Source: Halosimplex pelagicum
GTDB lineage: Archaea > Halobacteriota > Halobacteria > Halobacteriales > Haloarculaceae
Assembly (NCBI RefSeq): GCF_013415905.1
Contig: NZ_CP058909.1
Span: 2,728,001-2,792,000, forward strand
Reading direction: 5' to 3'
DNA length: 64,000 nucleotides
Shown: one piece after another, positions 9,228-54,107 of the stretch
Layout: the number at the start of each line of letters is the position of its first letter
Numbering within the stretch: the first letter of the stretch is position 1
Notes under the pieces: model-generated
The model's database searches: none
What the model was told of the DNA's origin: nothing
Seen by the model: the letters and a program-made list of their open reading frames with translations, nothing else
Translations under genes and position numbers: made by a program

Positions 9228-9311
9228 CACTCCCCATCTCACTCGCCCGTCCCAAGTGGGTACCGGAGGGTCAACCGGGGGTTTCACCTTCTCGCGCCGG
9301 TGGGCCGTCGC

Positions 9312-10172: not shown

Positions 10173-10345
10173 ACCCCTCCTCCGCCCGCCGTCCGCCTAA
10201 ACCTACTCCCGTTCGTCGTAGCACGCGCTCCGTGCCGGACCACAGTCAGATACTTGCCACGTACTTGCGGCGTCGCCACCGGATCCATCAGGTGACCCGA
10301 TTTCGGCCGTCCAAGCGCGTGCGAACGTCACGCACGCCTCAATCG

Positions 10346-10365
10346 TTTACTCGAACGGTAGTAAA
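10346..10365 (+). promoter_or_regulatory. TrmB-like operator upstream of fba-fbp
   Basis: The dyad TTTACT-N8-AGTAAA lies 17 bp upstream of the TATA box of fba. Read as TACT-N7-TAGTA it differs by one base from the Halobacterium TrmB consensus TACT-N7/8-GAGTA (recalled from the literature). Its position upstream of BRE/TATA is the one expected for activation, as described for gluconeogenic targets of TrmB. Binding itself is inference. Confidence 0.6.
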
Positions 10366-10382
10366 TAATGTCAGAAAGAAGA

Positions 10383-10388
10383 TATATA
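10383..10388 (+). promoter_or_regulatory. TATA box of fba-fbp operon
   Basis: TATATA preceded by a purine-rich BRE-like stretch. The fba ATG at 10416 lies about 30 bp downstream, so the transcript should be leaderless or nearly so. Confidence 0.7.
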
Positions 10389-10415
10389 CGTTCGGTCCGT
10401 GTACGCTTGTCCGTA

Positions 10416-11222: not shown

Positions 11223-12115
11223 GCAAGCAGCTCCCACCGTCGGCCGACTGGGTTGGCCATCCGACCGTCGACGCCGTCTTCGACGTGGTCCGGGACACCG
11301 CCAGCGAGGTCCGCGAGGCGCTGCCCGAACGCCGGGCGTACGTCGAGGGCCACAACCCCAGCGGCGAGAAGGTCCGCGCCGCCGACGAGTACGCCGACGA
11401 GCTGTTCTGCGAGCGCCTGCTCGCGCTCGATTCGGTCGGGAGCTACGCCTCCGAGGAGCGTCAGTCCGCGCAGACCGACGACGACGGCGGCGAGTACCAC
11501 CTCGCCCTCGACCCGCTCGACGGCTCCTCGAACCTCACCTCGAACAACCCGATGGGCACCATCGTCAGCGTCTACGACGAGCCGGTCCCGACCACCGGCG
11601 ACCACCTCGTCGCCGCCGCGTTCGTCCTCTACGGCCCCAACACCACGATGGTCGTCTCCGACGGCGACACCGTCGACGAGTACCTTATCGAGGACGACGG
11701 CGACGAGGGCCGCAAACTCCTCCGCGAGGGGCTCACCCTGCCCGACGACTCGACCGTCTACGCCTTCGGCGGTCGCCGCCCGGACTGGACCGACGGCGTC
11801 ACCGCGGCAGTCGAGGACCTGGAGGCCGACCGGCTGAAACTCCGCTACGGCGGCGCGTTCATCGCCGACGTGATGCAGGTGCTCACCCACGGCGGCGTCT
11901 TCGCCTATCCCGAACTCGCCGACGCGCCCGAGGGCAAGCTCCGCTACTGCTTCGAGTGCGCCCCCGTCGGCTTCGTCGTCGAGGCCGCCGGCGGCCGCGT
12001 CTCCGACGGCTACGGCGACCTCTTCGAGACCGACCCCGACCGGCTCCACCAGCGCAGCCCCGTGTATCTCGGGAACGCCGAACTCGTGGACCGGGTCGAA
12101 GCGAAACTGTCGTAG
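11219..12115 (+). CDS. fbp: fructose-1,6-bisphosphatase
   Basis: A 298-residue member of the Li+-sensitive phosphatase superfamily. The metal-binding motif DPLDGSSN starts at Asp98, and the acidic EYADE and SEER segments earlier contribute the other ligands. A second signature, CAPVGFVVEAAGG, lies near the C-terminus. It dephosphorylates fructose 1,6-bisphosphate, the committed step of gluconeogenesis. Its ATG overlaps the fba stop (ATGA), so the two are translationally coupled and share the promoter at 10383. The same aldolase-phosphatase pairing is known in Halobacterium. Confidence 0.92.
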   Translation: MSKQLPPSADWVGHPTVDAVFDVVRDTASEVREALPERRAYVEGHNPSGEKVRAADEYADELFCERLLALDSVGSYASEERQSAQTDDDGGEYHLALDPLDGSSNLTSNNPMGTIVSVYDEPVPTTGDHLVAAAFVLYGPNTTMVVSDGDTVDEYLIEDDGDEGRKLLREGLTLPDDSTVYAFGGRRPDWTDGVTAAVEDLEADRLKLRYGGAFIADVMQVLTHGGVFAYPELADAPEGKLRYCFECAPVGFVVEAAGGRVSDGYGDLFETDPDRLHQRSPVYLGNAELVDRVEAKLS

Positions 12116-38367: not shown

Positions 38368-39558
38368 ATGAGCATCGACCCAGCCGACGGGCCCGCCGCG
38401 GTCGTCGTTCCGGCGATCGCCGCACCGAGCAGCGTCGCCTGCGTGCGCTCGCTCGGGAAGCGCGGGATCCACACCGTCGTCGTCTCCGAAGACGAGGACG
38501 CCGCCGCCTTCCGGTCGCGCTACGCCGGCGAGACGGTCGTCGTCCCCGACCCACACGAGGATCTGGTCGCCTACAAGGACGCCCTCCTGTCGCTCGCGAT
38601 GCGGCCGGACGTGCTGACGATACTGCCCGTCCGCGAGGAGGACGTGTACGTCCTCGCGCAGTACCGCGAGGCCTTCGAGCCCCACGTCGAGACCCTCTGG
38701 CCGACCGCCGAGGGCCTGCGTCGGGTCCAGGACCGCGTCGAGCTGTTCGACGCGGCCGAGCGGGCCGGCGTCGCCGTCCCCGACACCAGCCTGCTCGACG
38801 AGGTCGACGACTGGGACCGCGAGTGGATCGTCAAGGGCCGCTACACCCTGCTCGCCGACGCCTACGTCGACGACCTGCCGCCCGAGCGCTCCCGCGACCC
38901 GCCCTCGACGCAGTACCTCAACGGGAACAAACCTGACGTGGAGACGATCCGCAGCCAGAACGGCCACACCCCGATCGTCCAGGAGTTCCTCCCGGCGACC
39001 GACGAGTACGCCTTCTTCGCGCTGTACGACGAGGGCGAGCCGGTCAGGACCTTCCAGCACCGGCAGGTCCGCGCGTACAACTACGCCGGCGGCCCCAGCT
39101 CCTTCCGCGAGTCCGTCTCGATCCCCGAACTGGACGAGGCCGGCCGCGCGCTGCTGGACGAGCTGGAGTGGCATGGGCTGGCGATGGTGGAGTTCCTGCG
39201 CGACGACGAGACCGGCGAGTTCGAGCTGATGGAGATCAACCCGCGGCTGTGGTCGTCGCTCCCCTTCTCCGTCCGCGCGGGCGCGGACTTCCCCCACGAC
39301 TACTGGCTGCTCGCCCGCGGCGAGCGCGACCGGATCGTCGACGACTACGAGGTCGGCACGGCCGGGCACCTGCTCCGCGGCGAGGTCTCCTATCTCCACA
39401 GCGTCCTGTTCGACGCGGAGGAACTGGTCGAGCGGCCGGTCCGCCGGGAGGCGTTCTCGGCGGTCGCCGAGTCGCTCCGGGAGCATCCCCGCTTCGACTA
39501 CCTGCGGCTCGACGACCCGCGACCGTTCGTCCGGGACGCGCTGAACGCGCTCCGGTAG
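38368..39558 (+). CDS. ATP-grasp ligase (predicted carboxylate-amine/thiol ligase)
   Basis: A 396-residue ATP-grasp protein of the COG3919 type. The N-terminal pre-ATP domain contains AVVVPAIAAPSSVACVRSLG and a GKRGIHTVVVSEDED stretch; the ATP-binding part begins REWIVKGRYTLLAD; the metal-binding motif is LMEINPRLWSSLPF near residue 290. It would activate a carboxylate as acyl phosphate and attach an amine or similar group. The TATA-like CATACTAAC about 30 bp before the ATG at 38368 fits a leaderless transcript. First gene of the glycan island; substrate unknown. Confidence 0.85.
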   Translation: MSIDPADGPAAVVVPAIAAPSSVACVRSLGKRGIHTVVVSEDEDAAAFRSRYAGETVVVPDPHEDLVAYKDALLSLAMRPDVLTILPVREEDVYVLAQYREAFEPHVETLWPTAEGLRRVQDRVELFDAAERAGVAVPDTSLLDEVDDWDREWIVKGRYTLLADAYVDDLPPERSRDPPSTQYLNGNKPDVETIRSQNGHTPIVQEFLPATDEYAFFALYDEGEPVRTFQHRQVRAYNYAGGPSSFRESVSIPELDEAGRALLDELEWHGLAMVEFLRDDETGEFELMEINPRLWSSLPFSVRAGADFPHDYWLLARGERDRIVDDYEVGTAGHLLRGEVSYLHSVLFDAEELVERPVRREAFSAVAESLREHPRFDYLRLDDPRPFVRDALNALR

Positions 39559-39589
39559 AATAGCGGCGTCGGTCGTGCGACCGGTGCGG

Positions 39590-40615
39590 TCAGTTACGCC
39601 GTTTCTCCTGGAACTCGGGTGTTGGAGCCGCTGGTTCGTCGGCCGCCTCGTAGGCGCTCCGCACGTCGTCGACGGTCGCGCAGTCGTGCTCGGCGGCGAA
39701 CACGAGCAGGTCGACGAACGGGGCGCCGTACTCGGCGGCGAGCGCGCGCAGCTGGTCCGAAAAGCCCGAGTGGAAGTCGGCGAGACCGTAGAGCACGTCG
39801 TCGACGGCGACGCCCGAGGCGTCGGGGTAGACGCCCTCCAGCAGCCCCTCGATCTCCCGGAGTCGCCGCCAGTCGTCGCGGGACACGTCGTCGAGGTAGC
39901 GGCCGGCGAGCAGTTCGGTCTGGGTGTTGCCGGCGCTGCGGCCGAGCCCCTGGAGCGACGCGTCGACGTAGCTCGCCCCGCAGTCGATGGCGCGGCGGGC
40001 GTTGGCGAGCCCGAACCCGACGTTGTCGTGGCCGTGGTAGCCGACGGCCGCGTCGACCTCTGCCATCGCGGTCACGTACGCCTCCACGTCCGCGGGCGTG
40101 AACCCGCCGGCGGAGTCGACGACGTAGGCGGTGTCGGCGCCGAGTTCGACCCCGGTGCGGGCCGCGTCGGCCGCTTCGGTCGGGGAGACGAGGTACGTCT
40201 TCAGCAGGTTGAGACTGACCCGCACGTCGAGGTCCGTCAGTTCCCGGAGCAGCGGGCGGGCGGCGAGGGGGTCGTCGGCGTCGACGCCGACGCGGACGAG
40301 GTCGAACGCCGACTCGTAGGCGGCGATGAGATCGATCTCCGCGGGACCGGCGACGCCGGGGAGCAACAGCGTCGTCAGCCCGGTGTCGGAGACGGCCTCC
40401 GAGACGATGTGGAGGTGTTCGGCGTCGGGCGGGTGCGGTTCGGGAGTCGTCGTCCCGAACCCGGTCCCCGGCCCCACGTCGAGCAGGTCGACGAACGAGA
40501 GGTCGTCGATCCGGTCGGTCAGCGCGGCCAGCTTCGGGGGGTCGAACTGGAAGTCGCTGACGTAGGAGCCGTCGCGGACGACCTCCTCGACGACGGTGGT
40601 TCCACCGAGCGTCAT
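39590..40615 (-). CDS. HMGL-like (DmpG-type) aldolase
   Basis: A 341-residue TIM-barrel of the HMG-CoA lyase/DmpG/isopropylmalate synthase superfamily. Starts MTLGGTTVVEEVVRDGSYVS; RDGSY replaces the common RDG-xQ metal-ligand motif; VDLLDVGPGTGFG, VVDSAGGFTPADVEAYV, the GYHGHDNVGFGLANARRA metal-binding stretch and ASLQGLGRSAGNTQTE follow, all typical of DmpG/MhpE 4-hydroxy-2-oxovalerate aldolases. It is in a glycan cluster rather than an aromatic degradation locus, so its substrate is probably a 2-oxo sugar acid or related compound. The gene faces the ATP-grasp gene across 31 bp. Confidence 0.82.
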   Translation of the reverse strand: MTLGGTTVVEEVVRDGSYVSDFQFDPPKLAALTDRIDDLSFVDLLDVGPGTGFGTTTPEPHPPDAEHLHIVSEAVSDTGLTTLLLPGVAGPAEIDLIAAYESAFDLVRVGVDADDPLAARPLLRELTDLDVRVSLNLLKTYLVSPTEAADAARTGVELGADTAYVVDSAGGFTPADVEAYVTAMAEVDAAVGYHGHDNVGFGLANARRAIDCGASYVDASLQGLGRSAGNTQTELLAGRYLDDVSRDDWRRLREIEGLLEGVYPDASGVAVDDVLYGLADFHSGFSDQLRALAAEYGAPFVDLLVFAAEHDCATVDDVRSAYEAADEPAAPTPEFQEKRRN

Positions 40616-40737
40616 CGTCTCTCCGTCGACCGTCCGCCGGAACGCGGGTCCGGGAGCCCCCGGAGCGACGGGACGGGGTAGTTCGCGAGCGACAGCCCGT
40701 GAGGGCACCGCGGTCGGTTACACGTTGGAACACTCAT
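40612..40737 (-). CDS. possible 41-residue upstream ORF coupled to the aldolase
   Basis: ATG at 40737; its TGA (40612-40614) overlaps the aldolase ATG as ATGA. The product begins MSVPTCNRPRCPHGLSLANY and is basic. Upstream are a TATA-like CCTATAACA (about 40800-40809, minus strand) and a GCCGCCC-CGAC-GGGCGGC hairpin at 40751-40768. The arrangement parallels the one before fttA. Could be chance. Confidence 0.3.
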   Translation of the reverse strand: MSVPTCNRPRCPHGLSLANYPVPSLRGLPDPRSGGRSTERR

Positions 40738-40899
40738 AGTAGTTGAAACGGCCGCCCCGACGGGCGGCGGTTCCCGAATACGTACCACTGAGGATCCGAT
40801 TGTTATAGGCCGCTTTCAGGCGGTACACTGCGTTTACGGTGTGATATCGAGTCCGTTCGTGGCGTCGATCTGAACCGGGAGAAAGACGGGGTTCGGGAC

Positions 40900-42375
40900 T
40901 CAGCGGAGGCGTTCGCGGACGGAGCCGTACAGCGGAGAGACGCGCTCGTAGACCGGATACGGGGTGTGTCGCGCCACGGTGCGGACCAGTCGGTCCCGCG
41001 CCGGCCGCCCGGCCATCGACTCGAAGTCGGCCCCGCGGAGCCACCGGACGAACGCGTCGGACCCGGCCATCGGCAGGTCGGCGTCCGCGGGCAACCGCTC
41101 CTGGAAGGTCTGCCAGTGGTAGGGGGCGTGCTGGTCGTTCAGCCACGCCCCGGCCTCGAAGCGCTCGACGGCGTGTTCGAACGACTCCCGGCCGACGTCG
41201 AAGCCGTGGTCGCTCGGGTCGAGACCGACCAGCGCGAGGCCCAGCGCCGTCCGGATGCACTTCTCGCAGCGCCCGCAGTTCTCGGCGGCCTCGGACGCCG
41301 AACAGGAGTACACCGGCAGGTCCGGGTCGTGCGTCCGGGCGTAGTCGGCCACGACCTCGATGCGCTCCTGGCGCTCCAGCTCGAACAGGTCGTGGACGCC
41401 CGTCGAGTCGGCCCAGGCGACTTCGTCGTCGATGTCGGGGTGAGTGCCCCACGGCATCGCCCGCCCGTCCCAGCCGTCGACGACCGGCGGCGGCTCCATC
41501 CCCTCCCAGACGGAGGCGGCGACGTAGAGCTCTCCCATCCCGTCGGCGACGGCCAGCGGCGCGCAGAGTCCGAGCAGCCCGAGGCCGCAGCCGACGGCGC
41601 TGTACCACGCCCCGTCGTGGTGGGTCTGGTACCGCGCGTCGAGCATCGCGGTGTCGAGGAACTCCAGCATGTTCGACCGGACGAACCGCGCGTCGACGCC
41701 GAACCGGTCGGCGAACGACTCCGTGCGGGCGCGCATCCGCCGCCAGCGCTCGGGTTCGTCGACGCCCACCACCCACCCCTGGATCGTGATCAGCGTCGGG
41801 TCCTCCCCGCGGTGGCGGACGTACGTCGCCAGCGAGTCCACCCCGCCCGTGAACAGCATGCCGGCGCCGTCGGCCGGTTCGGTCCCACTGACCGCTCCGG
41901 TCCCCGTGGGCGCTGCCTCGTCCTCGTCGGGCGCCGTCTCGCTCCGGCCGGACACCACGTCGTCCCACTCGGGCGCGCGCTCGGCTGTCACGCGGCCACC
42001 CTGCATGAACGGATACATCGCACAGAGGGCGTTGCCGACGGTTTCGAGGGAGTCGAGAAAGCGGCGGTCGGCGACGGGGACGCGCACGTCGGCGCCGGCG
42101 GCCCACGCGACCGGGCAGACCTGGGCCAGCACCGGGATCGTCAGGATCGACTCGGGCAGGTCGGAGACGTCGACGCCGTACTCGGCGTAGAAGGGCGATT
42201 CGTCGAAGAACGGTCGCAGATCGTCGCTGTAGGAGACGGTCGACTCGATGCGACAGCCGTCGGCGGTGACCGAGTCGACGGAGACGACCGGCGACTCGCC
42301 GTCGGGGGCGGAACCGGTCGCCCCGCCGGCGTCGCCGACCGCTGCGAGGATGGGGGATGCGGCAGTTCGGAACAC
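40900..42375 (-). CDS. QueC-like PP-loop ATPase, tandem copy 1
   Basis: A 491-residue protein with a GTG start. An N-terminal domain of about 170 residues (beginning near VVSVDSVTADGCRI and including SPFYAEYGVDVSDLPES) is followed by an N-type PP-loop MLFTGGVDSLATYVRH, a central LEFLDTAMLDARYQ and GLLGLCAPLAVADGMGELYV, and a Cys cluster C-x8-C-x2-C-x2-C (SCSASEAAENCGRCEKCIRT) like the zinc site of QueC. So it probably adenylates a carbonyl or carboxyl group. It is clearly paralogous to the next gene (most residues shared). Its own promoter is at 42398-42409. Substrate is unknown; queuosine or archaeosine chemistry is not implied by this cluster. Confidence 0.8.
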   Translation of the reverse strand: MFRTAASPILAAVGDAGGATGSAPDGESPVVSVDSVTADGCRIESTVSYSDDLRPFFDESPFYAEYGVDVSDLPESILTIPVLAQVCPVAWAAGADVRVPVADRRFLDSLETVGNALCAMYPFMQGGRVTAERAPEWDDVVSGRSETAPDEDEAAPTGTGAVSGTEPADGAGMLFTGGVDSLATYVRHRGEDPTLITIQGWVVGVDEPERWRRMRARTESFADRFGVDARFVRSNMLEFLDTAMLDARYQTHHDGAWYSAVGCGLGLLGLCAPLAVADGMGELYVAASVWEGMEPPPVVDGWDGRAMPWGTHPDIDDEVAWADSTGVHDLFELERQERIEVVADYARTHDPDLPVYSCSASEAAENCGRCEKCIRTALGLALVGLDPSDHGFDVGRESFEHAVERFEAGAWLNDQHAPYHWQTFQERLPADADLPMAGSDAFVRWLRGADFESMAGRPARDRLVRTVARHTPYPVYERVSPLYGSVRERLR

Positions 42376-42397
42376 GGGGCGGACCAGCGGCGCGGCG

Positions 42398-42409
42398 ATG
42401 TAAAGTATG
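42398..42409 (-). promoter_or_regulatory. TATA box of PP-loop copy 1
   Basis: Minus-strand CATACTTTACATC. Its TACTTTA core ends 26 bp before the GTG at 42375, predicting a leaderless start. Confidence 0.7.
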
Positions 42410-42477
42410 CGTTCGTTACGGCCGTTCTCGCGGACCGAAGCCGTCCCGACGAGCAGCGAGCGGGCCCGCGCTCGCTC

Positions 42478-43986
42478 TCAGGACCGCGGCGTCAGTTCGC
42501 GGACGGTGTCGTAGGCGGGCGACAGCCGCGCGTACACCGGAGCGGGGACCGCGCGAGCGGCGGCCCGAACGACGCGGTCCGAGACCGGCGGCCCGGACCT
42601 GGCGGCCGCCGCGCGCAGGTCGGCCGTCCGGAGCCAGTCGGCGACGGCGTCGACGCCCGCCACCGGGTACGAGGCGTCGGGGTCGACCGACGCCTGCAGG
42701 TCGAGCCAGTAGGCGAGGACGTGGAAGTCGACCAGCCAGTTGCCGGCCTCGATCTCTCGGCGGGCGCGCCCGAAGGTCGCCGCGTCCACGTCGAAGCCGT
42801 GGTCGTTCGGGTCGGCCCCGGCGAGCGCGAGCCCCAGCGCCGTCCGCGCGCACTTCTCGCAGCGGTCGCAGTTGCTCCCGGTCGCCGAGACCTCGCAGGC
42901 CCGGATCGGCAGGTCGAGCGACCGCTCGCGGAGGAACTCGGCGACGGTCTCGACGCGCTCCTGGCGGGTGATCTCGAAGGCGTCGTGGGCGACTTCCGTC
43001 CCGGCCCAGGCGATCTCGTCGTCGATGGCCGGGTCCGAGCCCCAGGGGATCGCGCCGCCGTCCCAGCCCTCGAACCGCTCCGCCGTCGGGAACCCCTCCC
43101 AGTGGGTCGCGGCGAGGTACAGCCGGTCCATCCCCTCGGCGACGGCCAGCGGCGCGCACAGGCCGGTCAGCCCGAGCCCGCAGCCGACGGCGCTGTACCA
43201 CGCCCCGTCGTGGCGGGGTTTGTAGTGGGCGTCGAGCATCGCGGTGTCGAGGAACTCCAGCATGTTCGAGCGGACGAACTGCGCGTCCACCCCGAAGCGG
43301 TCGGCGTAGCCGGCGATCCGCCGTCTGGTGTGGGCCCACCGCTCGTCGTCGTCGACGCCCACGAGCCACCCCCTGACGTTGATCAGCGTCGGGTCCTCCT
43401 CGCGGTGGCGGACGTACGTCGCCAGCGAGTCCACCCCGCCCGTGAACAGCATCCCGGTGCCGCCCGGGCCGCCGGTGCCGTCCGGACTGCCAGTGCCGTC
43501 CGCGCCGGCGGGGCCACCCGCGCCACCGGGGTCGCCCACGGCGGCGGGATCGTCCGCACCGTCTGTCCCGGACGGCGCCTGTTCGTTCCACTCGGGCGCG
43601 CGTTCGACGAGGACGCGCCCGCCCTCCATGAAGGGGTACATCTCGGAGAGGACGCGGCCGACGGTTTCGAGGGAGTCGAGGAAGCGGCGGTCGGCGGTCG
43701 AGACGCGCACGTCGGCGCCGGCGGCCCACGCGACCGGGCAGACGTGCGCCAGCACCGGGATCGTCAGGACCGATTCGGGCAGGTCGGAGACGTCGACGCC
43801 GTACTCCGCGTAGAAGGGCGATTCGTCGAAGAACGGTCGCAGGGCGTCGCTGTAGGAGACGGTCGCCTCGATGCGACGGCCGTCGGCGGTGACGGTATCG
43901 ACCGAGACGACCGGGGAACGACCGCCGTCGGATCCGCTCGCGCCTCGACCGACCGCAGACAGAAGGGATTTGTCACTCGGGATCAC
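42478..43986 (-). CDS. QueC-like PP-loop ATPase, tandem copy 2
   Basis: A 502-residue paralogue of copy 1 with the same order: N-terminal domain with PVVSVDTVTADGRRIEATVS, PP-loop MLFTGGVDSLATYVRH, and Cys cluster ACEVSATGSNCDRCEKCART. Just before the PP-loop it carries an extra Gly/Ala/Asp/Pro/Thr-rich tract, likely a flexible linker expanded by repetition. I chose the GTG at 43986 rather than the ATG at 44007: a matching TATA core lies 26 bp upstream of 43986, exactly as for copy 1, and the protein ends then align. The ATG at 44007 would be upstream of the predicted transcription start. Confidence 0.8.
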   Translation of the reverse strand: MIPSDKSLLSAVGRGASGSDGGRSPVVSVDTVTADGRRIEATVSYSDALRPFFDESPFYAEYGVDVSDLPESVLTIPVLAHVCPVAWAAGADVRVSTADRRFLDSLETVGRVLSEMYPFMEGGRVLVERAPEWNEQAPSGTDGADDPAAVGDPGGAGGPAGADGTGSPDGTGGPGGTGMLFTGGVDSLATYVRHREEDPTLINVRGWLVGVDDDERWAHTRRRIAGYADRFGVDAQFVRSNMLEFLDTAMLDAHYKPRHDGAWYSAVGCGLGLTGLCAPLAVAEGMDRLYLAATHWEGFPTAERFEGWDGGAIPWGSDPAIDDEIAWAGTEVAHDAFEITRQERVETVAEFLRERSLDLPIRACEVSATGSNCDRCEKCARTALGLALAGADPNDHGFDVDAATFGRARREIEAGNWLVDFHVLAYWLDLQASVDPDASYPVAGVDAVADWLRTADLRAAAARSGPPVSDRVVRAAARAVPAPVYARLSPAYDTVRELTPRS

Positions 43987-44008
43987 GTACCAAACCACTC
44001 GCCTCATC

Positions 44009-44021
44009 GGATAAAGTATTT
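44009..44021 (-). promoter_or_regulatory. TATA box of PP-loop copy 2
   Basis: Minus-strand AATACTTTATCC. The TACTTTA core has the same 26-bp spacing to the GTG at 43986 as the copy 1 promoter has to its GTG. This supports the downstream start and indicates that the promoter was duplicated with the gene. Confidence 0.7.
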
Positions 44022-44121
44022 TTCAGCTATCCGGCGTACCGGACCGCCTATCGGACGTACCGCTCCGCCTACGCGCGGTTATCGAGTCGTAACCGAGAGT
44101 ACCGAACGAGTTGGGGTGTGC

Positions 44122-45363
44122 CTACGCCGGGACCGGCGTCGCGCGCGGTCGCCGAACGGTCCGGTCGAACAGCACCGTCTCGTGTTCGGCGACGACCGCG
44201 TCCCAGTCGTGGGCCTCGGCGGTGGCGCGGCCCGCTCGCCCGAGCGCGGGGGCGTCGGCCTCGCCGTCGATCACGTCGTCGAGCGTGTCGACGAGTCCCT
44301 CGGCGGTCCCGTCGTACAGCAGGCCGTTCTCGCCCGGCTCGACCAGCCGGCGGTGGGCGGGGATGTCTGTCGCGACCACCGGGGTGCCCGAGGCCATGTA
44401 CTCCAGGAGCTTCGCGGGGAAACTGATCCGGTAGGACTCGATGTCGGCCAGCGGGGAGACGGCGACGTCGGAGTCGGCGAGCACGTCGGGGATCTCCTCG
44501 TGGGGGACGATCCCGAGCCAGGTGACCCGGTCGTCGATCCCGAGGTCGCGGGCCCGCTCGCGCAGGGAGGCCATGTAGTCGTCGTCGCCGCCGCCGGCGA
44601 CGCGGAACTCGACGTCGCGGTCGGTCGCCGCGACGGCGTCGAGGACGTGTTCGAGCCCCCGCGGCGGGCCGATCGAGCCGACGTAGGTGACCACCCACGT
44701 GTCGTCGGGCCCGCGGGCGGGCTCACGGGTCGCGTCGACGGCGAAGCGGTCGGTGTCGACGCCCATCCCGATGACGGTGGCCTCCGAGAGGTCGACCCCG
44801 TACTCCAGTTCGGTCGTCTCGCGGATCCCGTCGGTCAGGCAGACCACCTCCGTCGTCCGGTCGAGCAGCCGACCGACCGCCCAGGCGTACTTGGCCTTGA
44901 CCGCGATCCGGGTCCGCTTGCGGAGCGGCAGTCGGCCGTGAGCGGCGTTCGAGAGGTCCCGTTTCTGACGGACGGGGACCGACTGGAGGCCGACGACGAA
45001 CCGCGAGCCGCCGGCGCGGGCGGCCAGCCACCCCTGGATGATCGTCTGCTGGAAGGCGTAGACGGCGTCGAAGCGGTAGCGAGCGCCCAGCGCGACGGCG
45101 TACAGCGTCGACGCGACGAGGAAGAGCAGGCCCGAGACGATGGGAACCTCGCCGGTCGAGACCTCGTGGTGGACCACGTCGTCGGGGAACTCCCCGTCCT
45201 CGTCGCGGTCCGAGAAGCGCCGGCTGAGGACGTGGACGGTGTGGGACGCCGAGAGCGTCCGCGAGAGGTAGTGGGGAACGGTCGCGCTGTAGGGCGAGGA
45301 TATCTCGCGGTGGTGGACGACCAACACGGAGTCGCGGTCGCCGCCCCCTCGTGACCGGCTCAT
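44122..45363 (-). CDS. GT4-family glycosyltransferase
   Basis: A 413-residue GT-B glycosyltransferase starting at the ATG at 45363. The donor-binding C-terminal half is clear: VVTYVGSIGPPRGLEHVLDA, WLGIVPHEEIPDVLADSDVA, then the catalytic SFPAKLLEYMASGTPVVATD with the E-x7-E-like region. N-terminal acceptor half includes VLSRRFSDRDEDGE and FAVGLQSVPVR-like loops. It would add a sugar from a nucleotide donor to a lipid-linked or protein-linked glycan on the cytoplasmic side. The upstream frame to 45792 is not coding. Confidence 0.9.
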   Translation of the reverse strand: MSRSRGGGDRDSVLVVHHREISSPYSATVPHYLSRTLSASHTVHVLSRRFSDRDEDGEFPDDVVHHEVSTGEVPIVSGLLFLVASTLYAVALGARYRFDAVYAFQQTIIQGWLAARAGGSRFVVGLQSVPVRQKRDLSNAAHGRLPLRKRTRIAVKAKYAWAVGRLLDRTTEVVCLTDGIRETTELEYGVDLSEATVIGMGVDTDRFAVDATREPARGPDDTWVVTYVGSIGPPRGLEHVLDAVAATDRDVEFRVAGGGDDDYMASLRERARDLGIDDRVTWLGIVPHEEIPDVLADSDVAVSPLADIESYRISFPAKLLEYMASGTPVVATDIPAHRRLVEPGENGLLYDGTAEGLVDTLDDVIDGEADAPALGRAGRATAEAHDWDAVVAEHETVLFDRTVRRPRATPVPA

Positions 45364-45818: not shown

Positions 45819-47075
45819 ATGAGCATCGGCATCTACGGCGTCGGATTCGTCGGCAAGGAGGTCGCGGAACTGGCCGTCGAGCGCGGGCGGTCGGTCGCCT
45901 GCGTCGACGTGGACCCCGAGGTCGTCGAGCGGATCGAGGCCGAGGAGTACCTGGCGGTCGACGACCACGACCGCGTCTCGGCGACCACGGACGGCGCGGC
46001 GGTCGCGGCCGAGGCCGACACCTGCCTCGTCACGGTTCCGACACCGGTCGACGGGGCCGAACGGGTCGACCTGGGCCCGCTCCGGGCGGCCAGCGAGACC
46101 ATCGGCGAGGGGCTGCGGGGCCGCGACGCCGCCGAGCCCTGTCTCGTCGTCGTCGAGTCGACCATCCCGCCGGGGACCGCCCGCCGGGAGATCGCCGAGG
46201 TGTTCGACACCTACGGCCTGGAGCTGGGGACCGACTACTACCTCGCGGCCGTGCCCGAGCGGGTCGACCCCGGCAACGAGGCGTGGCCGCTCGAAGCCAT
46301 CCCGCGGGTCGTCGGCGCGCTCTCCGAGCCGGGGCTGGAGCGGGCGACCGCGTTCTACGACCGCCTGCTCGACGCCGAGGTCCACCCGGTCGACAGCGTC
46401 GAGATCGCCGAGGTCTCGAAGATCGTCGAGAACGCCTTCCGCGACATCAACATCGCCTTCGCCAACGAGATCGCCGTCTCGCTGGACTCGCTGGACGTGG
46501 ACGCCCGCTCGGCCATCGACGCGGCGAGCACGAAGCCGTTCGGCTTCATGGGCTTCGAACCGGGCGCCGGCGTCGGCGGCCACTGCATCCCCGTCGACCC
46601 CCACCTCCTCATCGGCGAGGCCGAGGACGCGGGGTTCACCCACGAGCTGCTGAGCGTCGCCCGGACCATCAACAACCAGATGCCCGAGTACGTGGCCGAC
46701 ATGACCGTCGACGCGCTCACGCGCGAGCGGGTCCTCCCGCAGGACGCCACGGCGCTGCTGCTCGGTCGCGCGTTCAAACCCGACCTCGCGGACGACCGCA
46801 ACAGCCCCTACTTCCCGATCCGCGAGGGGCTGACCGACTACGACGTGACCGTCGAGACGTACGACCCCGTCCTCGCCGCGGAGTCGTCGGTCGATTCGCC
46901 GTACCAGCCGGTCGACGCGGTCGTCGTCGTCACCGACCACGAGGCGTTCGCGGACCTGGACCCCGAACGGTTCGCCGACCTGGGCGTCTCGACGGTCGTC
47001 GACGGCCGCGACGTGTTCGACGCCGAGGCCGTCGAGGCCGCTGGGCTCCGCTACGACGCCGTCGGGGAGGTCTGA
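45819..47075 (+). CDS. UDP-glucose/GDP-mannose-family nucleotide-sugar dehydrogenase
   Basis: A 418-residue two-step NAD oxidoreductase. NAD-binding GVGFVGKEVAELAVERGR at the N-terminus; VVESTIPPGTARREIAEVF and PERVDPGN in the middle; catalytic Cys256 in GVGGHCIPVDPHLLI; C-terminal UDP-binding domain beginning ALLLGRAFKPDLADDRNSP. It converts an NDP-hexose to the NDP-hexuronic acid. Divergent WecC-like members make UDP-ManNAcA, and this protein looks nearer to that branch than to classical Ugd. It provides an acidic sugar for surface glycan. Followed 4 bp later by the DUF354 gene. Confidence 0.93.
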   Translation: MSIGIYGVGFVGKEVAELAVERGRSVACVDVDPEVVERIEAEEYLAVDDHDRVSATTDGAAVAAEADTCLVTVPTPVDGAERVDLGPLRAASETIGEGLRGRDAAEPCLVVVESTIPPGTARREIAEVFDTYGLELGTDYYLAAVPERVDPGNEAWPLEAIPRVVGALSEPGLERATAFYDRLLDAEVHPVDSVEIAEVSKIVENAFRDINIAFANEIAVSLDSLDVDARSAIDAASTKPFGFMGFEPGAGVGGHCIPVDPHLLIGEAEDAGFTHELLSVARTINNQMPEYVADMTVDALTRERVLPQDATALLLGRAFKPDLADDRNSPYFPIREGLTDYDVTVETYDPVLAAESSVDSPYQPVDAVVVVTDHEAFADLDPERFADLGVSTVVDGRDVFDAEAVEAAGLRYDAVGEV

Positions 47076-47079
47076 GCCG

Positions 47080-48159
47080 ATGCAGGTCTTCGTGACCATC
47101 CAGCACCCGGCCCACGTCCACTTCTTCCGCGAGGCCATCGGGGAGCTGGAGGCCGCGGGCCACGAGGTCTCCGTGTTCATGCGCGACGTGGAGATCGCCG
47201 CCGACCTGCTGGAGAGCTACGGCATCGACTACGAGGTGCTCGCGCCGACCAGCGACTCGCTGGCCTCGCTGGCGCGCTCGCAGGCGCGCTACGAGCTCGC
47301 CCTGCTCCGGCGGGCCAGGCGGGAGGACCCGGACGTGCTCACCGCGATCGCCGAGCCGGCGGTCGCGCACCTCTCGACGCTGCTGGACTGCCGGTCGGTC
47401 GTGTTCACCGACACCGAGCACGCGACGCTGGGCAACCGGCTCACCTTCCCGTTCGCCGACCGGGTCTGTACGCCCGACGCGTACATGGACGACTTGGGCG
47501 ACAAGCAGGTCACCTACCCCGGGTTCCACGAGCTCGCCTACCTCCATCCCGACCGGTTCGAACCGGACCCCTCGGTCGTCGCCGAGGCCGGTATCGACCC
47601 CGACGAGCGGCTCGTCGTCCTGCGGCTGATCGCCTGGGAGGCGCTGCACGACGTGGGCGGCGGCGGCTTCGCCGACGCGCGCGAGGTCGTCGACGAACTC
47701 GAACGCCACGGCGCGCGAGTGGTGATCACCGCCGAGGCCGACCTCCCGCCGGATCTCGCCGACCGGCGGGCGACCGTCGCGCCGGAGGACATGCACCACC
47801 TGCTGGCCCACGCGGATCTGTTCGTCGGCGAGAGCGCGACGATGGCCGCCGAGTCGGCGGTGCTGGGCACGCCCGCGGTGTACGCCTCGACGCTCGAACT
47901 CGGCTACCTCGAGACCCTGGAGTCGGAGTACGGCCTCGTGGTCAACACGACCGGCGAGGACCGCCAGGCCGAGGCGCTCCACCGCGCCAGTTCGATCCTC
48001 GCGAGCCACGACGAGACCGACTGGGCGGGCCGGCGCGAGCGACTGCTGGACGACTGCGTCGACACGACCGACGTGATCCTGTCGCAGGTTGCCGACGGCC
48101 TCGCCCGGCGGCCGACCGCCGAGGTCGACGCTCCCCGGCCGGTCGCCGAGCGGCGATGA
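47080..48159 (+). CDS. DUF354 family protein (GT-B-like fold)
   Basis: A 359-residue protein with the DUF354 start QVFVTIQHPAHVHFFREAI and C-terminal part MHHLLAHADLFVGESATMAA, where the GT-B nucleotide-sugar site would be. Members resemble UDP-GlcNAc 2-epimerases and occur in archaeal polysaccharide loci, but no activity is established. Separated from the sugar dehydrogenase by 4 bp, so surely one operon. A role in making or transferring the uronic acid sugar is inferred. Confidence 0.87.
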   Translation: MQVFVTIQHPAHVHFFREAIGELEAAGHEVSVFMRDVEIAADLLESYGIDYEVLAPTSDSLASLARSQARYELALLRRARREDPDVLTAIAEPAVAHLSTLLDCRSVVFTDTEHATLGNRLTFPFADRVCTPDAYMDDLGDKQVTYPGFHELAYLHPDRFEPDPSVVAEAGIDPDERLVVLRLIAWEALHDVGGGGFADAREVVDELERHGARVVITAEADLPPDLADRRATVAPEDMHHLLAHADLFVGESATMAAESAVLGTPAVYASTLELGYLETLESEYGLVVNTTGEDRQAEALHRASSILASHDETDWAGRRERLLDDCVDTTDVILSQVADGLARRPTAEVDAPRPVAERR

Positions 48160-48239: not shown

Positions 48240-49778
48240 ATGCGTCGAAGGGCTACGAACAAGCAAATGGCGCCCGACCGGTTGTCACGACGGCGATTCC
48301 TCAAAGGGACAGTAGCGGCCGCGCTGGGAGTCGGCGCGGCGGGGTGCGGGTCGAACGAGAGCGAGCCGACCGACCGGGAGGACGCGGGCACGCTGATCGA
48401 CCCGGACACGCCGACGGACACGCCGACCGCGACGGCCGAGCCGACGCCGACCGGCACGCCGACCGGCACCCCGATCCCGGAGGTCGTCGCCGAGTACGGC
48501 GACCAGTTCGACTCGATCGTCAACGTAGTCGACGCCGGCGCCGACCCCGAGGGCTCGGAACCGATCAACGACGTGCTCACCGACGCGATCGCCGAGGACA
48601 CGCTCGTGTACTTCCCCGCCGGCCGCTACGCGCTCGACTACATGGAGATCGAGGACGTCTCCGGCTTCGGGCTCGTCTCGATCCCCCACGAGCGGACGCT
48701 GCTCGTCCCGAACGGGCCGGTCGAGGAGGTCGGCAACCACTTCATCGACTTCAGGGGCGTGGGGGACATCCTCCTCGACGGCCTGGAGTTCGACTTCACC
48801 GAGTCCGGCGTCGGCGGCGCCATCAGGACCATCTCCGAGGGCAACGTCGTCGCCCGGAACCTCCGGACCCACGGGAAGTTGCCCGACCGGAACAAGGAGC
48901 GCAAACACGTCGCCTACCGGTTCGAGGTGCAAAACCCCGAGGGCAAAGGACTCGTCGAGCGGGTCGTCGCCCGCGACGGCGGCCACGACGGCGGTAACGG
49001 CGTCGGCATCTACGTCGGCAAGGACCACGCGGGCTCGCTGACGTTCCGCGACTGCGAGATCGCGAACTTCCCGAACAACGGCCTGTACGCCTCGGCGCCG
49101 GGCCAGACCCTCGACGGCTACACCGGCAACAACGGCGACATCCACGTCCGGGGCGGCCGCTACGAGAACAACAACATCGCCAACGTCCGGATCGGCTCGA
49201 CCGGCTCGACCGTCAAGGACGTGACGGTCGTCGTGGACAGGGTCCCGCCGAGCCCCTCGTCGAGCCACCTGAACGTCCGCGGGATCAGGCTCCGGGCCCG
49301 CAGCGACCAGCTGGTCGAGAACTGCGAGGTCCGGATCGGCCCGGACGCGGGCAAGGGGTTCGGCGCCATCTCCTACCACCCCGAACACGAGAGTTCGACG
49401 ATTCGGGACACGACGATCAGGGTCGACCGCGACGACTTCAGCGCGATCGACGCGACCGACTCCAGCAACGGCGGGTCCGAGGCGCCGCTGAACTTCGAGA
49501 ACGTGACCGTCACCGGGAGCGCCGGCGGCGGGGCGGCCGTCGACATCGCCGACCGCCCCGAGACGACGCTCCGGAACTGCCGGATCGAACAGTCCGGCGC
49601 CGACCGACGGGGGATCGTGTTCACCGACTCCGAGAACTGCGCCGTCATCGACTCGACGATCCGGGTGACCGGCCTCCCGATCGAGACCGAGAACGCCTCG
49701 GTCGACCGCCGGAACCTCTCCATCGAGAACCTGCGTCCCGGACAGGCCACCGTGACACCCGTCGCCGACGACGGGTGA
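48240..49778 (+). CDS. Tat-exported lipoprotein with parallel beta-helix
   Basis: A 512-residue protein. Tat motif SRRRFLKG followed by a hydrophobic segment and a lipobox AAGC, then an acidic Thr/Pro linker (DTPTDTPTATAEPTPTGTPT). From residue about 90 there are right-handed beta-helix coils with recurrent G-N-D-V patterns (VDAGADPEGSEPINDVLTDA; YVGKDHAGSLTFRDCEI; RIGSTGSTVKDVTVVVDR). Start could also be the internal ATG at 48267. Such proteins bind or cleave polysaccharides on the cell surface. Third gene after the DUF354 operon. Confidence 0.88.
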   Translation: MRRRATNKQMAPDRLSRRRFLKGTVAAALGVGAAGCGSNESEPTDREDAGTLIDPDTPTDTPTATAEPTPTGTPTGTPIPEVVAEYGDQFDSIVNVVDAGADPEGSEPINDVLTDAIAEDTLVYFPAGRYALDYMEIEDVSGFGLVSIPHERTLLVPNGPVEEVGNHFIDFRGVGDILLDGLEFDFTESGVGGAIRTISEGNVVARNLRTHGKLPDRNKERKHVAYRFEVQNPEGKGLVERVVARDGGHDGGNGVGIYVGKDHAGSLTFRDCEIANFPNNGLYASAPGQTLDGYTGNNGDIHVRGGRYENNNIANVRIGSTGSTVKDVTVVVDRVPPSPSSSHLNVRGIRLRARSDQLVENCEVRIGPDAGKGFGAISYHPEHESSTIRDTTIRVDRDDFSAIDATDSSNGGSEAPLNFENVTVTGSAGGGAAVDIADRPETTLRNCRIEQSGADRRGIVFTDSENCAVIDSTIRVTGLPIETENASVDRRNLSIENLRPGQATVTPVADDG

Positions 49779-50109
49779 CGACACCTCGACGACCGACGCC
49801 ACGCCGCCGGTGACCGTCGCGTCACCGCCGGCCGAGGGATCGTCGGTAGCCGGCCGGTAACTACCGCTTACTCGGTCGGTGGCGTCTCGAAACCAATCCT
49901 TACTGCCCGTCGCCGCCCCGTCGAGCCGGGGGAGACGGGCGCGTCGCGGCCCGACCCTGAGCCGCGCTCGGCGGCACGTATCCCTCGCGATCCGGTACGT
50001 ACCCCGCAATCGATCGGCACGGAACCGAACGCAACGGCCGAAGATCCGGTCGTATCGGGTAGTTTACCCGCAGGTACCCTTTTCCCAGTAGATAGGGCTT
50101 AACCGCGAT
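49779..50109. other. 331-bp intergenic region with duplicated promoter block
   Basis: No gene seen. The last 41 bp are closely similar to the block preceding the next beta-helix gene (52650-52691). Confidence 0.5.
50069..50109 (+). promoter_or_regulatory. promoter block of beta-helix gene 2, copy 1
   Basis: GCAGGTA, then CCCTTTTCCCAG (weak TATA-like, about 31 bp before the ATG), then AACCGCGATATGGTG. The same order occurs before 52692 with small differences, so the duplicated unit included the regulatory sequence. Confidence 0.6.
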
Positions 50110-52416
50110 ATGGTGAACGGTAACCAGAACGAACCGGATAGTACGAGTGAGCAAACTCGTCGCAATCGGCTACCACCGGGCGACGAGTTCGGACGGCGCT
50201 CCTTCCTGAAGCTCGGCGCCGGGGCCGCGGCCGCTGGCACCCTGTTCGCCGGCGGGGCCGCCGCCGCGCCGACGACGCGCCACCTCGAGATCGTCTCGAC
50301 GGGCGAGACGACCGAGACGGGCGACCTCGCGGTCGACTACGAGTTCACGGCCACCGGCGAGATCGCTCCCGACACCGACAACGGCCGCAACTCCGCGGAG
50401 GGCAACGACTCGATCGTCCAGAACGACGACGGCACCTGGACCGCCACGGGCACGACCGGCAACGGCTTCGGCGACGCCTACGCCGTCACGGGCCGCGTCG
50501 TCGACTTCTCCGCGACGGGCGCGTACGATCTCTACCTCGACGGCGAGGCCGTCACCGTCGACGACCTCGTCACCGAGTACGAGCACACCATCGAGGTGCT
50601 GACGACCGAGGACCCCTCGGAGCTGGACTACACCTTCACGACCACCGGCGAGATCGAACCGAACTACGACAACGGTGACGACTCCGCCAGCGGCAACGAT
50701 TCGGTCGCCCGGAACGACGACGGCACCTGGACCGCCGACGGCTACACCGGCAACGGCTACGGCGACGCCTACTACTTCGACGGCGACCTCACCGACTTCG
50801 GCCCCGTCGAGGAGTTCGTCGAGGTCCGCGTCGACGGCAGCGCCGTCGACCTGAGCCGGTTCGAACCCGAGCCCGAACCCGAGCCCGAGCGACACACGAT
50901 CGAGGTGCTGACGACCGAGGACCCCTCGGAACTGGACTACACCTTCACGACTACCGGGGAGATCACCCCGAACTACGACGTCGAGGAGAACGCCGCCAGC
51001 GGCAATGACAGCGTCGCCCAGAACGACGACGGCACCTGGACCGCCGACGGCTACACCGGCAACGGCTACGGCGACACCTACTCCTTCGAAGGGGAGCTGA
51101 CGGACTTCGGCCCCGTCGAGGAGTTCGCCGAGGTCCGGGTCGACGGTACCGCTATCGATCTGGCGCAGTTCCGTCCCGACGAACACACGATCGAGGTGCT
51201 GACGACCGAGAACCCCTCGGAACTGGACTACGCCTTCACGACCTCCGGGGAGATCACGCCGGTCACCGACGTCGAGGAGAACGCCGCCAGCGGCAACGAC
51301 TCCGTGACGGAGACCGACGACGGCACCTGGCGCGCCGACGGCTACACCGGCAACGGCTACGGCGACACGTACCGGTTCCGCGGCGAGCTGCTGACGTTCG
51401 GGCCGGACGTCGACCACGCCGAGGTGCGGATCGACGGGAGCGTCGTCGACCTGAGCGGGTACGAGACCCCCCCGGATCCGGCCGTGGTCGTGGGCGGCGG
51501 CGACGGCTACTCGGGCACCGTGCCCGAATCCGAGGCCGACGTGGTCGTCTCTACCCGCGGCGAACTCGCCTCGGCGCTGAACGGCGCCGCCAGCGGCGAC
51601 GTGGTGTACGTCGACCCCGATGCGAGCATCAACGTCCCGGACCGCGAGCTGACGATCCCCTCGGGCGTGACGCTCGCCTCCGACCGCGGCATCGACGGCT
51701 CCGACGGCGGGGAGATCCGCGCCGACGACGTCTACGGCGAGGGGCCGCTCCAGACCGAAGACGACGTGCGCGTCACGGGGCTGCGGATCACCGGCTCGAT
51801 CGACGAGTACGTCGAGTTCAGTCGTCCGGTCCACAGCGGCCTCACCGTCAAGGGGGCCGGCTGCGAGATCGACAACGTCGAGATCTCCGGGTTCAGTTAC
51901 GGCGGTGTCAAGCTCCAGGAACCCGCCTACGTCCACCACTCGTACATCCACACCAACGCGATGGACGGCCTCGGCTACGGGGTCGTCTGCAACCAGGAGG
52001 GCGGTGACACCCTGATCGAGTGCAACGAGTTCAACCTCAACCGCCACTCCGTCGCCAGCCGCGGCTACGCGGGCTACGAGGTCCGCTACAACCACTTCGG
52101 CGAGGACGCGATCGCCTATCAGGTCGGGACCCACCGGCCGGGCGGCACGACGCTCGAGATCCACCACAACACGTTCGTCCCGACCCTGCACCTCAACTCC
52201 GGGGAGGACCCCGAGTCGCACGTCAGCATCCGGGGCGTCCCGGACGACGCCGCCGACATCCACCACAACTGGTTCCACAACCCCGAGCGACCGGCGCCCG
52301 GGCGCGGCACGGAATCGATCATCCAGCCCCACGTCGAGGAGTTCACGAACCTCGACTACCGGAACAACCACTACGGGACCGACGAGCCGACCGACGACGA
52401 CATCGGCTGTCCCTGA
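50110..52416 (+). CDS. Tat-exported beta-helix protein with four N-terminal modules
   Basis: A 768-residue protein. Tat motif GRRSFLKLGAG at residues 27-37 and an Ala-rich core. Then come four modules of about 97-103 residues: a diverged first (HLEIVSTGETTET) and three very similar copies starting with HTIEVLTTEDPSELDYTF at residues 159, 262 and 359, each ending near VDLSRFE. They are followed (from about 455) by a right-handed parallel beta-helix (VVSTRGELASALNGAASGDV; ISGFSYGGVKLQEPAYVHHS; FVPTLHLNSGEDPESHVSIR) of the polysaccharide lyase-like type. Repeated modules look like carbohydrate-binding beta-sandwiches. Paralogue of the next gene. Confidence 0.9.
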   Translation: MVNGNQNEPDSTSEQTRRNRLPPGDEFGRRSFLKLGAGAAAAGTLFAGGAAAAPTTRHLEIVSTGETTETGDLAVDYEFTATGEIAPDTDNGRNSAEGNDSIVQNDDGTWTATGTTGNGFGDAYAVTGRVVDFSATGAYDLYLDGEAVTVDDLVTEYEHTIEVLTTEDPSELDYTFTTTGEIEPNYDNGDDSASGNDSVARNDDGTWTADGYTGNGYGDAYYFDGDLTDFGPVEEFVEVRVDGSAVDLSRFEPEPEPEPERHTIEVLTTEDPSELDYTFTTTGEITPNYDVEENAASGNDSVAQNDDGTWTADGYTGNGYGDTYSFEGELTDFGPVEEFAEVRVDGTAIDLAQFRPDEHTIEVLTTENPSELDYAFTTSGEITPVTDVEENAASGNDSVTETDDGTWRADGYTGNGYGDTYRFRGELLTFGPDVDHAEVRIDGSVVDLSGYETPPDPAVVVGGGDGYSGTVPESEADVVVSTRGELASALNGAASGDVVYVDPDASINVPDRELTIPSGVTLASDRGIDGSDGGEIRADDVYGEGPLQTEDDVRVTGLRITGSIDEYVEFSRPVHSGLTVKGAGCEIDNVEISGFSYGGVKLQEPAYVHHSYIHTNAMDGLGYGVVCNQEGGDTLIECNEFNLNRHSVASRGYAGYEVRYNHFGEDAIAYQVGTHRPGGTTLEIHHNTFVPTLHLNSGEDPESHVSIRGVPDDAADIHHNWFHNPERPAPGRGTESIIQPHVEEFTNLDYRNNHYGTDEPTDDDIGCP

Positions 52417-52649
52417 CCGCCGGATTTTCCCTTAGTCTCGCGTGCGCGCGAGACTGGCCCCGTATCGCGCTGGTAATCGCACGTTTCTCCCGATGCATCG
52501 CGAACTCCGAGCGAGCCGGTCGCGGTGCGCGCTCCCCGCTCGCCGACCGTCTCGGGTAAGCCGCTCCTACGCAAAGACTCGGGAAGCCGCAACCAACTGT
52601 ACGAATCCGGTACGGAAGCGGCGCGCAAGCGAGTGTGCCACGCACCGCT

Positions 52650-52691
52650 ACTGCAGGTAGCCTTATCCCAGAAGCAGAGACTTACCGCGAT
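52650..52691 (+). promoter_or_regulatory. promoter block of beta-helix gene 3, copy 2
   Basis: GCAGGTA, then CCTTATCCCAGAAG (TATA-like CTTATCC about 31 bp before the ATG), then TTACCGCGATATGGTG, matching the block at 50069-50109 over most positions. Confidence 0.6.
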
Positions 52692-54107
52692 ATGGTGTTC
52701 GGAAACCAGAGCGAAACGACGGGTGACGAAACACGGGACGATCGTAACGCGGGCTTACCGGGCGGTTCGGGCGGGTTCGGGCGACGGTCGTTTCTGACGG
52801 CGGCTGCCGCGACGGCGGCGGCTCCGCTGGTCACGGGGAGCGGACAGGCCGCCCAGGCGTCGGGCGGTCGGCGCCGGATCGAGATCGACAGCACCGGTTC
52901 GAAGGCGGTGAACTACGAGTTCACCGCGACGGGCGCGGTCGAACCCGTCCGCGGCGACGCCGATGGCAACGACTCGATCACCGAGAACGGCGACGGCACC
53001 CGGACCGCGACCGGGTCGGTCGGCTCGTGGGGCCGCGATACCTACACGTTCGAGGGACGCATCACCGGCTTCTCGCCGACGAAGGGCGACTTCGAACTCC
53101 GCGTCGACGGGACGCGCGTCGACCCCTCGGCGGTCGCGAAGAAGAAGACGCTGAAGTCGCTGCCGGCGGCCAGCGGCGTGCTCGGCGGCGGGAAGGGCTA
53201 CCCGGACGCGGTCCCGAAGTCGGCGGCCACCACGGTCGTCTCCGATATCGCAGGGCTCGAAACGGCGCTGAACGGGGCCTCCAGCGGCGACGTGGTCTAC
53301 GTCGACCCGTCGGCGACGATCCAGGCCGGTAAGCGCGAGCTAACCGTTCCCTCGGGCGTGACGCTCGCCTCGAACCGCGGGGTCGGCGGCGCCAAGGGCG
53401 GGGAGATCCACGCCGGCGAGGTCCACGGCGAGGGCCCCATCCACACCGAGCACCAGGTTCGGATCACGGGCGTGCGGATCACCGCGCCGAACGACGAGTA
53501 CACCGAGTACAGCCGCCCGGTCCACAGCGGCGTGGTCGTCGGGGGCAACGGCTGCGAGATCGACAACGTCGAGATCTCCGGGTTCACGTACTCGGGCGTG
53601 AAGTTGCTGCACTCGGCGCGGGTCCACCACTCGCACATCCACTCCAACCCGATGGACGGCCTCGGCTACGGGATCGTCTGCATCGGCGGCGGCAGCACCC
53701 TGATCGAGTACAACCGCTTCAACTACAACCGCCACTCCGTCGCGAACCAGGGCACCGCCGGCTACGAGGTCCGCTACAACCACTTCGGCGACAAGGCCGT
53801 CGCCTACCAGGTCGGCACCCATCGGCCGGGCGCGACCACGCTGAATATCCACCACAACACGTTCGTCCCGACCAAACACATCAACTCCGGGGAGGACCCC
53901 GAGTCGCACGTCAGCATCCGCGGCGTGCCCGACGACATCGCGGACATCCACCACAACTGGTTCCACAACCCGAAGAAGCCCGCACCGGGTCGGGGCACGG
54001 AGTCGATCATCCAGCCCCACTCGAACCAGTTCCGGAACGTGAACTTCGACACCAACCACTACGGCGCGAAGAAACCGTCCGACCCGACGATCGGCTGCCC
54101 GCGGTAA
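52692..54107 (+). CDS. Tat-exported beta-helix protein with one N-terminal module
   Basis: A 471-residue paralogue of the preceding gene, starting at the ATG at 52692 (MVFGNQSETTGDET), which aligns with the start of the paralogue. Tat motif GRRSFLTAAAA; one N-terminal module (RRIEIDSTGSKAVNYEFTAT, with GNDSITENGDGT) rather than four; then the same beta-helix (SSGDVVYVDPSATI; ISGFTYSGVKLLHSARVHHS; STLIEYNRFNYNRHSVANQG). The helix region is highly similar to that of 50110-52416. Likely secreted or surface-attached. Substrate unknown. Confidence 0.9.
   Translation: MVFGNQSETTGDETRDDRNAGLPGGSGGFGRRSFLTAAAATAAAPLVTGSGQAAQASGGRRRIEIDSTGSKAVNYEFTATGAVEPVRGDADGNDSITENGDGTRTATGSVGSWGRDTYTFEGRITGFSPTKGDFELRVDGTRVDPSAVAKKKTLKSLPAASGVLGGGKGYPDAVPKSAATTVVSDIAGLETALNGASSGDVVYVDPSATIQAGKRELTVPSGVTLASNRGVGGAKGGEIHAGEVHGEGPIHTEHQVRITGVRITAPNDEYTEYSRPVHSGVVVGGNGCEIDNVEISGFTYSGVKLLHSARVHHSHIHSNPMDGLGYGIVCIGGGSTLIEYNRFNYNRHSVANQGTAGYEVRYNHFGDKAVAYQVGTHRPGATTLNIHHNTFVPTKHINSGEDPESHVSIRGVPDDIADIHHNWFHNPKKPAPGRGTESIIQPHSNQFRNVNFDTNHYGAKKPSDPTIGCPR

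Follow-up and report, generated by a model that had tools for sequence, protein, structure and literature searches.

What would two large PP-loop proteins, encoded in tandem beside a glycosyltransferase, be doing in a surface-glycan locus of a haloarchaeon? The question arises from a 64-kb stretch of Halosimplex pelagicum DNA, the window analysed here (positions 2728001-2792000 of a 5.2-Mb genome that is a single contig), in which the original prediction, made from the letters of the DNA, had recognised a QueC-like pair of open reading frames within a glycan island. Both reading frames, here called PP1 and PP2, are present and intact where they were predicted (Table 1), and their setting is indeed a glycan island. 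Our answer is that, by sequence and modelled structure, they represent a coherent, undescribed, haloarchaea-centred branch of the QueC-fold PP-loop enzymes, and that they may serve as ATP-dependent, carboxylate-activating amide (C-N) ligases of surface-glycan assembly, a proposal for which we consider the chances evenly balanced.

The profile search and the structural comparison with QueC that had been suggested at the outset both place the two proteins in the QueC fold. Profiles of the PP family and of QueC matched across the whole core (E 1.8e-6, probability 90; 2.3e-6 in a repeat), and the link to QatC was weaker (E 1.5e-4 and 4e-5). When the AlphaFold model of PP1 (pLDDT 87, pTM 0.86) was compared with the PDB using Foldseek, the best match was QatC (E 7.8e-7 over 431 columns) and the second was QueC (3bl5; E 3.7e-3, template-modelling [TM] score 0.70 by target length); TtuA and MnmA came next, with weaker matches mostly to the Rossmann core alone, and the match to Cap9 (9nto) was weak (E 0.05). 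The N-terminal domain that PP1 and PP2 had been said to share proved genuine and conserved, about 140-170 residues long, and gave a good model when folded alone (pLDDT 87.5). That model had no significant match in the PDB, the best being RNase H (E 6.7e-3, TM 0.31) with QatC not retrieved, and the order of its predicted strands and helices looks RNase-H-like.

Current domain libraries miss the family. PP1 and PP2 have no match above cut-off among the Pfam, NCBIfam or PADLOC models; the gathering cut-off of the QueC model PF06508 is not reached, with 3 of 27 members matching it at all (best E 0.0013) and PP1 and PP2 not even at 0.1. Sequence searches of the PDB with the two proteins gave no significant match, and literature searches found no paper describing the family. 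We found it in 103 of 392 Halobacteria genomes, about a quarter of those sampled, and also in Bathyarchaeota, Thermoproteota, Bacillota, Chloroflexota and one Devosia. It is rare in the sampled bacteria (2/280 in one class sample, seed genome included; 1-2 of ~250 in each sampled group), and in the Pseudomonadota sample close members are confined to the seed genome, with a distant sister clade, strongly matched by the PP-family profile (E 3e-29), in six more genomes. The sister-clade proteins (L200-L206), all from Pseudomonadota, are about 370-430 residues long, and three of their seven loci are clearly glycan loci; Pfam scans of seven of the proteins and NCBIfam scans of three gave no match. 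Tandem copies occur in the window (two), in Devosia (two) and in the Dehalococcoidia locus L149 (three; 7301-11281). The viral contigs that we searched held no relative, and a viral origin was rejected on that ground.

Both active-site features reported in the original prediction, the FTGGVDS PP-loop and the C-x8-C-x2-C-x2-C cluster, are present in PP1 and PP2. Across 32 aligned members, the Gly-Gly and the final Ser of the PP-loop and all four Cys are invariant, the four Cys likewise in a separate alignment of 27 relatives; the PP-loop takes the form [ST]GGxDS in 31/32, and the spacing from first to second Cys is exactly 8 in 18/32 and 7-10 in 31/32. The family has motifs of its own, [PE]WG[ST]xPxI[DE] in 23 of the 32 and RQx[KR] in 31, and in the profile alignment its PWG[ST]HP loop falls at the YPDC position of QueC.

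With QueC (PF06508; PDB 3bl5) the PP proteins share the SGGxDS-type PP-loop, the Cys4 site, where zinc is predicted, and the whole-core profile match, but the QueC substrate motifs YxQxHxxE, VPxRN and YPDC each occur in 0/32 members, and the PP proteins are about twice as long, do not adjoin queD or queE in the loci examined and occur in genomes without QueC. QatC, from the qatABCD anti-phage defence system (PDB 9y01/9y02; NCBIfam NF041925), is of similar length and appears to follow a similar domain order, in which a QueC core bearing the Cys4 zinc module stands between an N-terminal domain and a helical C-terminal extension; its motifs STRTxHP, TKGxM and CGxCxxCxxRR, however, are found in 6/6 QatC and 0/32 PP members, the PADLOC and NCBIfam models fail to match PP1 or PP2, and family scans of neighbours drawn from PP loci recognised no qatA, qatB or qatD. 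The WbpG-type N-acetyl-sugar amidotransferases, cluster 5 of PF06508 (PMC13329287), are also PP-loop nitrogen-transfer enzymes of surface-polysaccharide loci, but their CxxC(x)6CxC motif is in 0/32 members and no NCBIfam model matched the PP family. Cap9, of the type IV cyclic-oligonucleotide-based anti-phage signalling system (PDB 9nto), is a QueC-fold, amide-forming conjugating enzyme as well, but it is small, retains the deazaguanine motifs and acts with a CD-NTase.

The genomic context points to glycans. Using hidden Markov models built from seed glycosyltransferases of the window and of bacterial loci, we looked for a glycosyltransferase or DUF354 protein within 10 kb of each PP gene, with 40 arbitrary 20-kb windows of the same clade as controls. 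Such a gene was near PP in 40/61 haloarchaeal loci versus 5/40 control windows (P 1e-7, an optimistic value given that the loci are related and not independent events), and DUF354 itself was found in 22 of the 61. The glycan context first noticed in the window recurs in haloarchaea, in several bacteria and in other archaea. In Natrialbaceae the order DUF7344, beta-helix proteins, DUF6541-like, PP, phosphodiesterase, deacetylase, Gfo/Idh, DUF362, epimerase, GT4 and DUF354 is conserved; a polysaccharide deacetylase homolog (model seeded from one such locus) is present in 40/61 haloarchaeal loci, and a uridine diphosphate (UDP)-sugar dehydrogenase in 6/61. Outside the haloarchaea, a polysaccharide pyruvyl transferase (PF04230) lies within about 7 kb of PP in six loci, directly adjacent in three, and a FemAB-type GNAT (PF13480) adjoins PP in three bacteria (L149, Dehalococcoidia; L200 and L205, both sister clade). 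In the loci examined, PP does not adjoin queD or queE, a placement mostly beside queuosine or archaeosine genes having been named beforehand as speaking against a glycan role; PP1 and PP2 are not queuosine or archaeosine genes, and an archaeosine function was rejected because the true QueC is encoded elsewhere in the genome.

The established chemistry of QueC-family enzymes joins a carboxylate, at the expense of ATP, either to ammonia, as in QueC, or to the amine of an N terminus, as in Cap9 (PMC13329287, PMC13279940), and it is because of this chemistry, together with the glycan context, that we read PP1 and PP2 as carboxylate-amine ligases. We infer the following course, in which adenylation, product, substrates and order of steps are all putative. 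The PP-loop would bind ATP and adenylate a carboxylate, and an amine or ammonia near the Zn(Cys)4 module would attack the bound acyl-AMP; the resulting amide bond would lie on a surface-glycan building block or on its acyl decoration, and the neighbouring glycosyltransferases would carry out the assembly at the same time or afterwards. Where copies stand in tandem, the paralogs would differ in the acyl group or the amine that they accept. The oxo-acid activated by PP1 would come from, or be remodelled by, the DmpG-like protein linked to the PP1 lineage, and the adjacent ATP-grasp protein would add one more carboxylate-amine bond to that decoration.

Several observations weigh against this proposal. 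None of the characterised relatives shares its substrate-binding motifs with the family, and the reaction is for that reason an extrapolation from the fold. The best structural match, to QatC, has a whole-chain TM score of 0.38-0.42 and a root-mean-square deviation of 11 Å in the model comparison. Substrate and product alike are putative, and the common descent of the haloarchaeal loci tempers the context statistic. The third PP paralog of the window genome and its clade stand outside glycan loci, and the Halomicrobium copy is set in a dap gene cluster in the opposite orientation. Since PP1 and PP2 have promoter elements of their own, there is also no operon evidence linking them to the ATP-grasp or DmpG-like genes.

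Alternative chemistries start from the same fold. Acting like Cap9, or perhaps QatC, the proteins could activate 7-carboxy-7-deazaguanine (CDG) and conjugate it to an amine of a protein or glycan; QatC is the nearest solved structure, and CDG should be available because the Halosimplex genome holds QueC and QueD. The CDG-recognition motif YPDC is, however, among the QueC motifs missing from all 32 members, and both QueC and QueD are missing from the PP-bearing Devosia (G392, three copies) and Aquibacillus (G395, two copies), which makes a 7-deazaguanine substrate unlikely; with no partner protein common to all loci either, we find this explanation barely credible. The domain order apparently shared with QatC, and the frequent variability of surface-glycan islands, would also suit a QatC-like anti-phage protein that is unrelated to glycan chemistry and stands in such islands by chance. 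The missing QatC motifs, the failure of PADLOC and of scans for QatA, QatB and QatD in the loci, the lack of relatives in viral contigs and the stable gene order with phosphodiesterase, deacetylase and Gfo/Idh across Natrialbaceae all argue against it, and we consider a defence role highly unlikely.

The Foldseek matches to TtuA and MnmA, next after those to QatC and QueC, bring in sulfur transfer: following the logic of TtuA, MnmA, ThiI and LarE, the PP-loop would adenylate a carbonyl or carboxyl group and sulfur from a persulfide or an Fe-S cluster would be inserted, giving a thio-sugar or thioamide. Yet those matches are weaker and largely limited to the Rossmann core, the cysteines are arranged as in the QueC/QatC zinc module and not as in the [4Fe-4S] signature of three Cys that has been described for LarE, and of the neighbours examined none was recognised as a sulfur carrier or a desulfurase, so that sulfur transfer appears distinctly unlikely. 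A simpler amidation deserves some weight although we doubt it: as QueC uses ammonia (PMC13329287) and the window contains a nucleoside diphosphate (NDP)-sugar dehydrogenase, the enzymes might do no more than turn uronic-acid carboxylates into uronamides or nitriles, and acyl decoration would play no part. In haloarchaeal PP loci, however, the deacetylase homolog is frequent and the UDP-sugar dehydrogenase rare, which favours amines over uronic acids; a general uronamide synthase was rejected for the same rarity.

The amide-ligase proposal may extend to an unrecognised class of QueC-fold ligases, in archaea and bacteria, that builds amide-linked surface-glycan decorations and is diversified by tandem duplication and by swapping in dedicated sources of acyl groups, of which the DmpG-like neighbour of PP1 would be one, a generalization that we offer tentatively and would not yet bet on. 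Phage defence is a setting in which QueC-fold enzymes have recently been shown or proposed to have taken on protein conjugation (Cap9, QatC), and the PP family suggests a further reuse, in the building of surface glycans. Its loci delimit the genes with which to look for unusual nitrogen-containing sugars on archaeal surfaces. The presence of PP1 together with the DmpG-like gene in some of the six Halosimplex loci compared, and their absence from others, amounts to a natural experiment that could tell which gene is responsible for which decoration.

The neighbours named in the original prediction, an ATP-grasp protein, an HMGL/DmpG-like protein, a GT4 and an NDP-sugar dehydrogenase, were recovered by Pfam and NCBIfam, the ATP-grasp matches being below curated cut-offs; its expectation that four families co-occur held in part. 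The pairing of PP-loop and ATP-grasp genes recurs: close homologs of the ATP-grasp protein, likely a carboxylate-amine ligase, adjoin PP in Natronorubrum and other genera (61-65% identity), about 12 genomes from four haloarchaeal genera have an ATP-grasp gene no more than 2 kb from PP (counted from coordinates), and PRK12767-type ATP-grasps are also present in the Bacilli locus L255 and the sister-clade locus L205. The DmpG-like gene, on the other hand, is confined to three Halosimplex species. Of the six Halosimplex loci compared, the three that contain it are precisely the three that hold a copy of the PP1 clade, and it always lies next to the PP1 ortholog; neither this gene nor PP1 is present in G275, and two PP copies occur with no DmpG-like gene in each of H. 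carlsbadense and H. salinum. DmpG-like matches occur in 25/392 Halobacteria genomes, exceed 35% identity in two Halosimplex alone and, in eight of the other loci, lie without any glycan marker tested, and for DmpG the idea of one conserved four-family set was rejected. The protein resembles the 4-hydroxy-2-oxo-acid aldolases DmpG and BphI in fold and matches PRK08195 (E 3e-45, below cut-off); the alignment shows the RDG and HxH metal-site motifs retained. It differs from them in standing outside any recognised catabolic operon and in two replaced residues, the His of RDGMH (here RDGSY) and the equivalent of BphI Tyr290, which we take to be catalytic in BphI/DmpG; both are replaced in all three Halosimplex copies and kept in eight aligned canonical haloarchaeal DmpGs.

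The start sites of the PP genes can be placed from a TATA-like element, ATACTTTA, which has two copies in the whole window versus 0.02 expected, each ending 26 nt before the GTG of one PP gene. PP1 starts with GTG; for PP2, which has an in-frame ATG upstream at 44007, the GTG at 43986 was preferred in the original prediction, and the element, placed as for PP1, supports that choice. The element also precedes most of the other Halosimplex PP copies whose upstream DNA was examined. In G161 it stands ahead of both PP genes, in G275 ahead of PP2, in H. aquaticum ahead of the PP gene and in H. carlsbadense ahead of the first copy; for the second H. carlsbadense copy it sits just upstream of an alternative GTG. 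The pattern suggests that PP1 and PP2 are each transcribed from their own promoter.

Table 1. Features of the PP locus, in window coordinates
Feature	Coordinates	Strand	Basis or remark
ATP-grasp protein, PRK06849/PRK12767-like	38368..39558	+	Pfam/NCBIfam matches weak, below curated cut-offs
DmpG/HMGL-like TIM-barrel protein	39590..40708	-	Pfam/NCBIfam; motif alignment
PP1, QueC-like PP-loop enzyme with N-terminal domain; FTGGVDS; Cys4 site C358/C367/C370/C373	40900..42375	-	
TATA-like element ATACTTTA of PP1	42401..42408	-	26 nt upstream of PP1 GTG start
PP2, tandem paralog of PP1, 65% identity	42478..43986	-	GTG start set by promoter position
TATA-like element ATACTTTA of PP2	44012..44019	-	26 nt upstream of PP2 GTG start
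GT4 glycosyltransferase	44122..45363	-	Pfam PF00534/PF13692
NDP-sugar C6 dehydrogenase, uronic-acid forming	45819..47075	+	TIGR03026, 305 bits vs cut-off 189.8
DUF354 (GT-B-like) protein	47080..48159	+	PF04007

Some further features of PP loci may be recorded. In the Halomicrobium-type loci (L038, L046 and L072, from G041, G114 and G059), the PP gene, at about 9-10.7 kb, lies between dapD-like and dapB/dapA-like genes; this placement, seen in a single genus, may be chance or may hint at a diaminopimelate-related substrate. The PP gene of Aquibacillus halophilus (L145:9977-18598) stands between glycosyltransferases and genes that read as nonribosomal-peptide-synthetase-like, asparagine-synthase-like and lasso-peptide-like, with the condensation and AMP-binding domains supported by Pfam. 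A small acidic protein (c13; L043:8533-9048 and equivalents) is encoded tail-to-tail with PP in about 24 haloarchaeal locus records, some of them overlapping. The GT4 is retained next to PP in the other Halosimplex loci. Beyond DUF354 in the window, family scans found three successive right-handed beta-helix proteins in one orientation (48240-54107), then genes for a flippase-like protein, another GT4 and a protein with DUF1616, and BH1-like matches of this beta-helix kind appear again near PP genes in many haloarchaeal loci.

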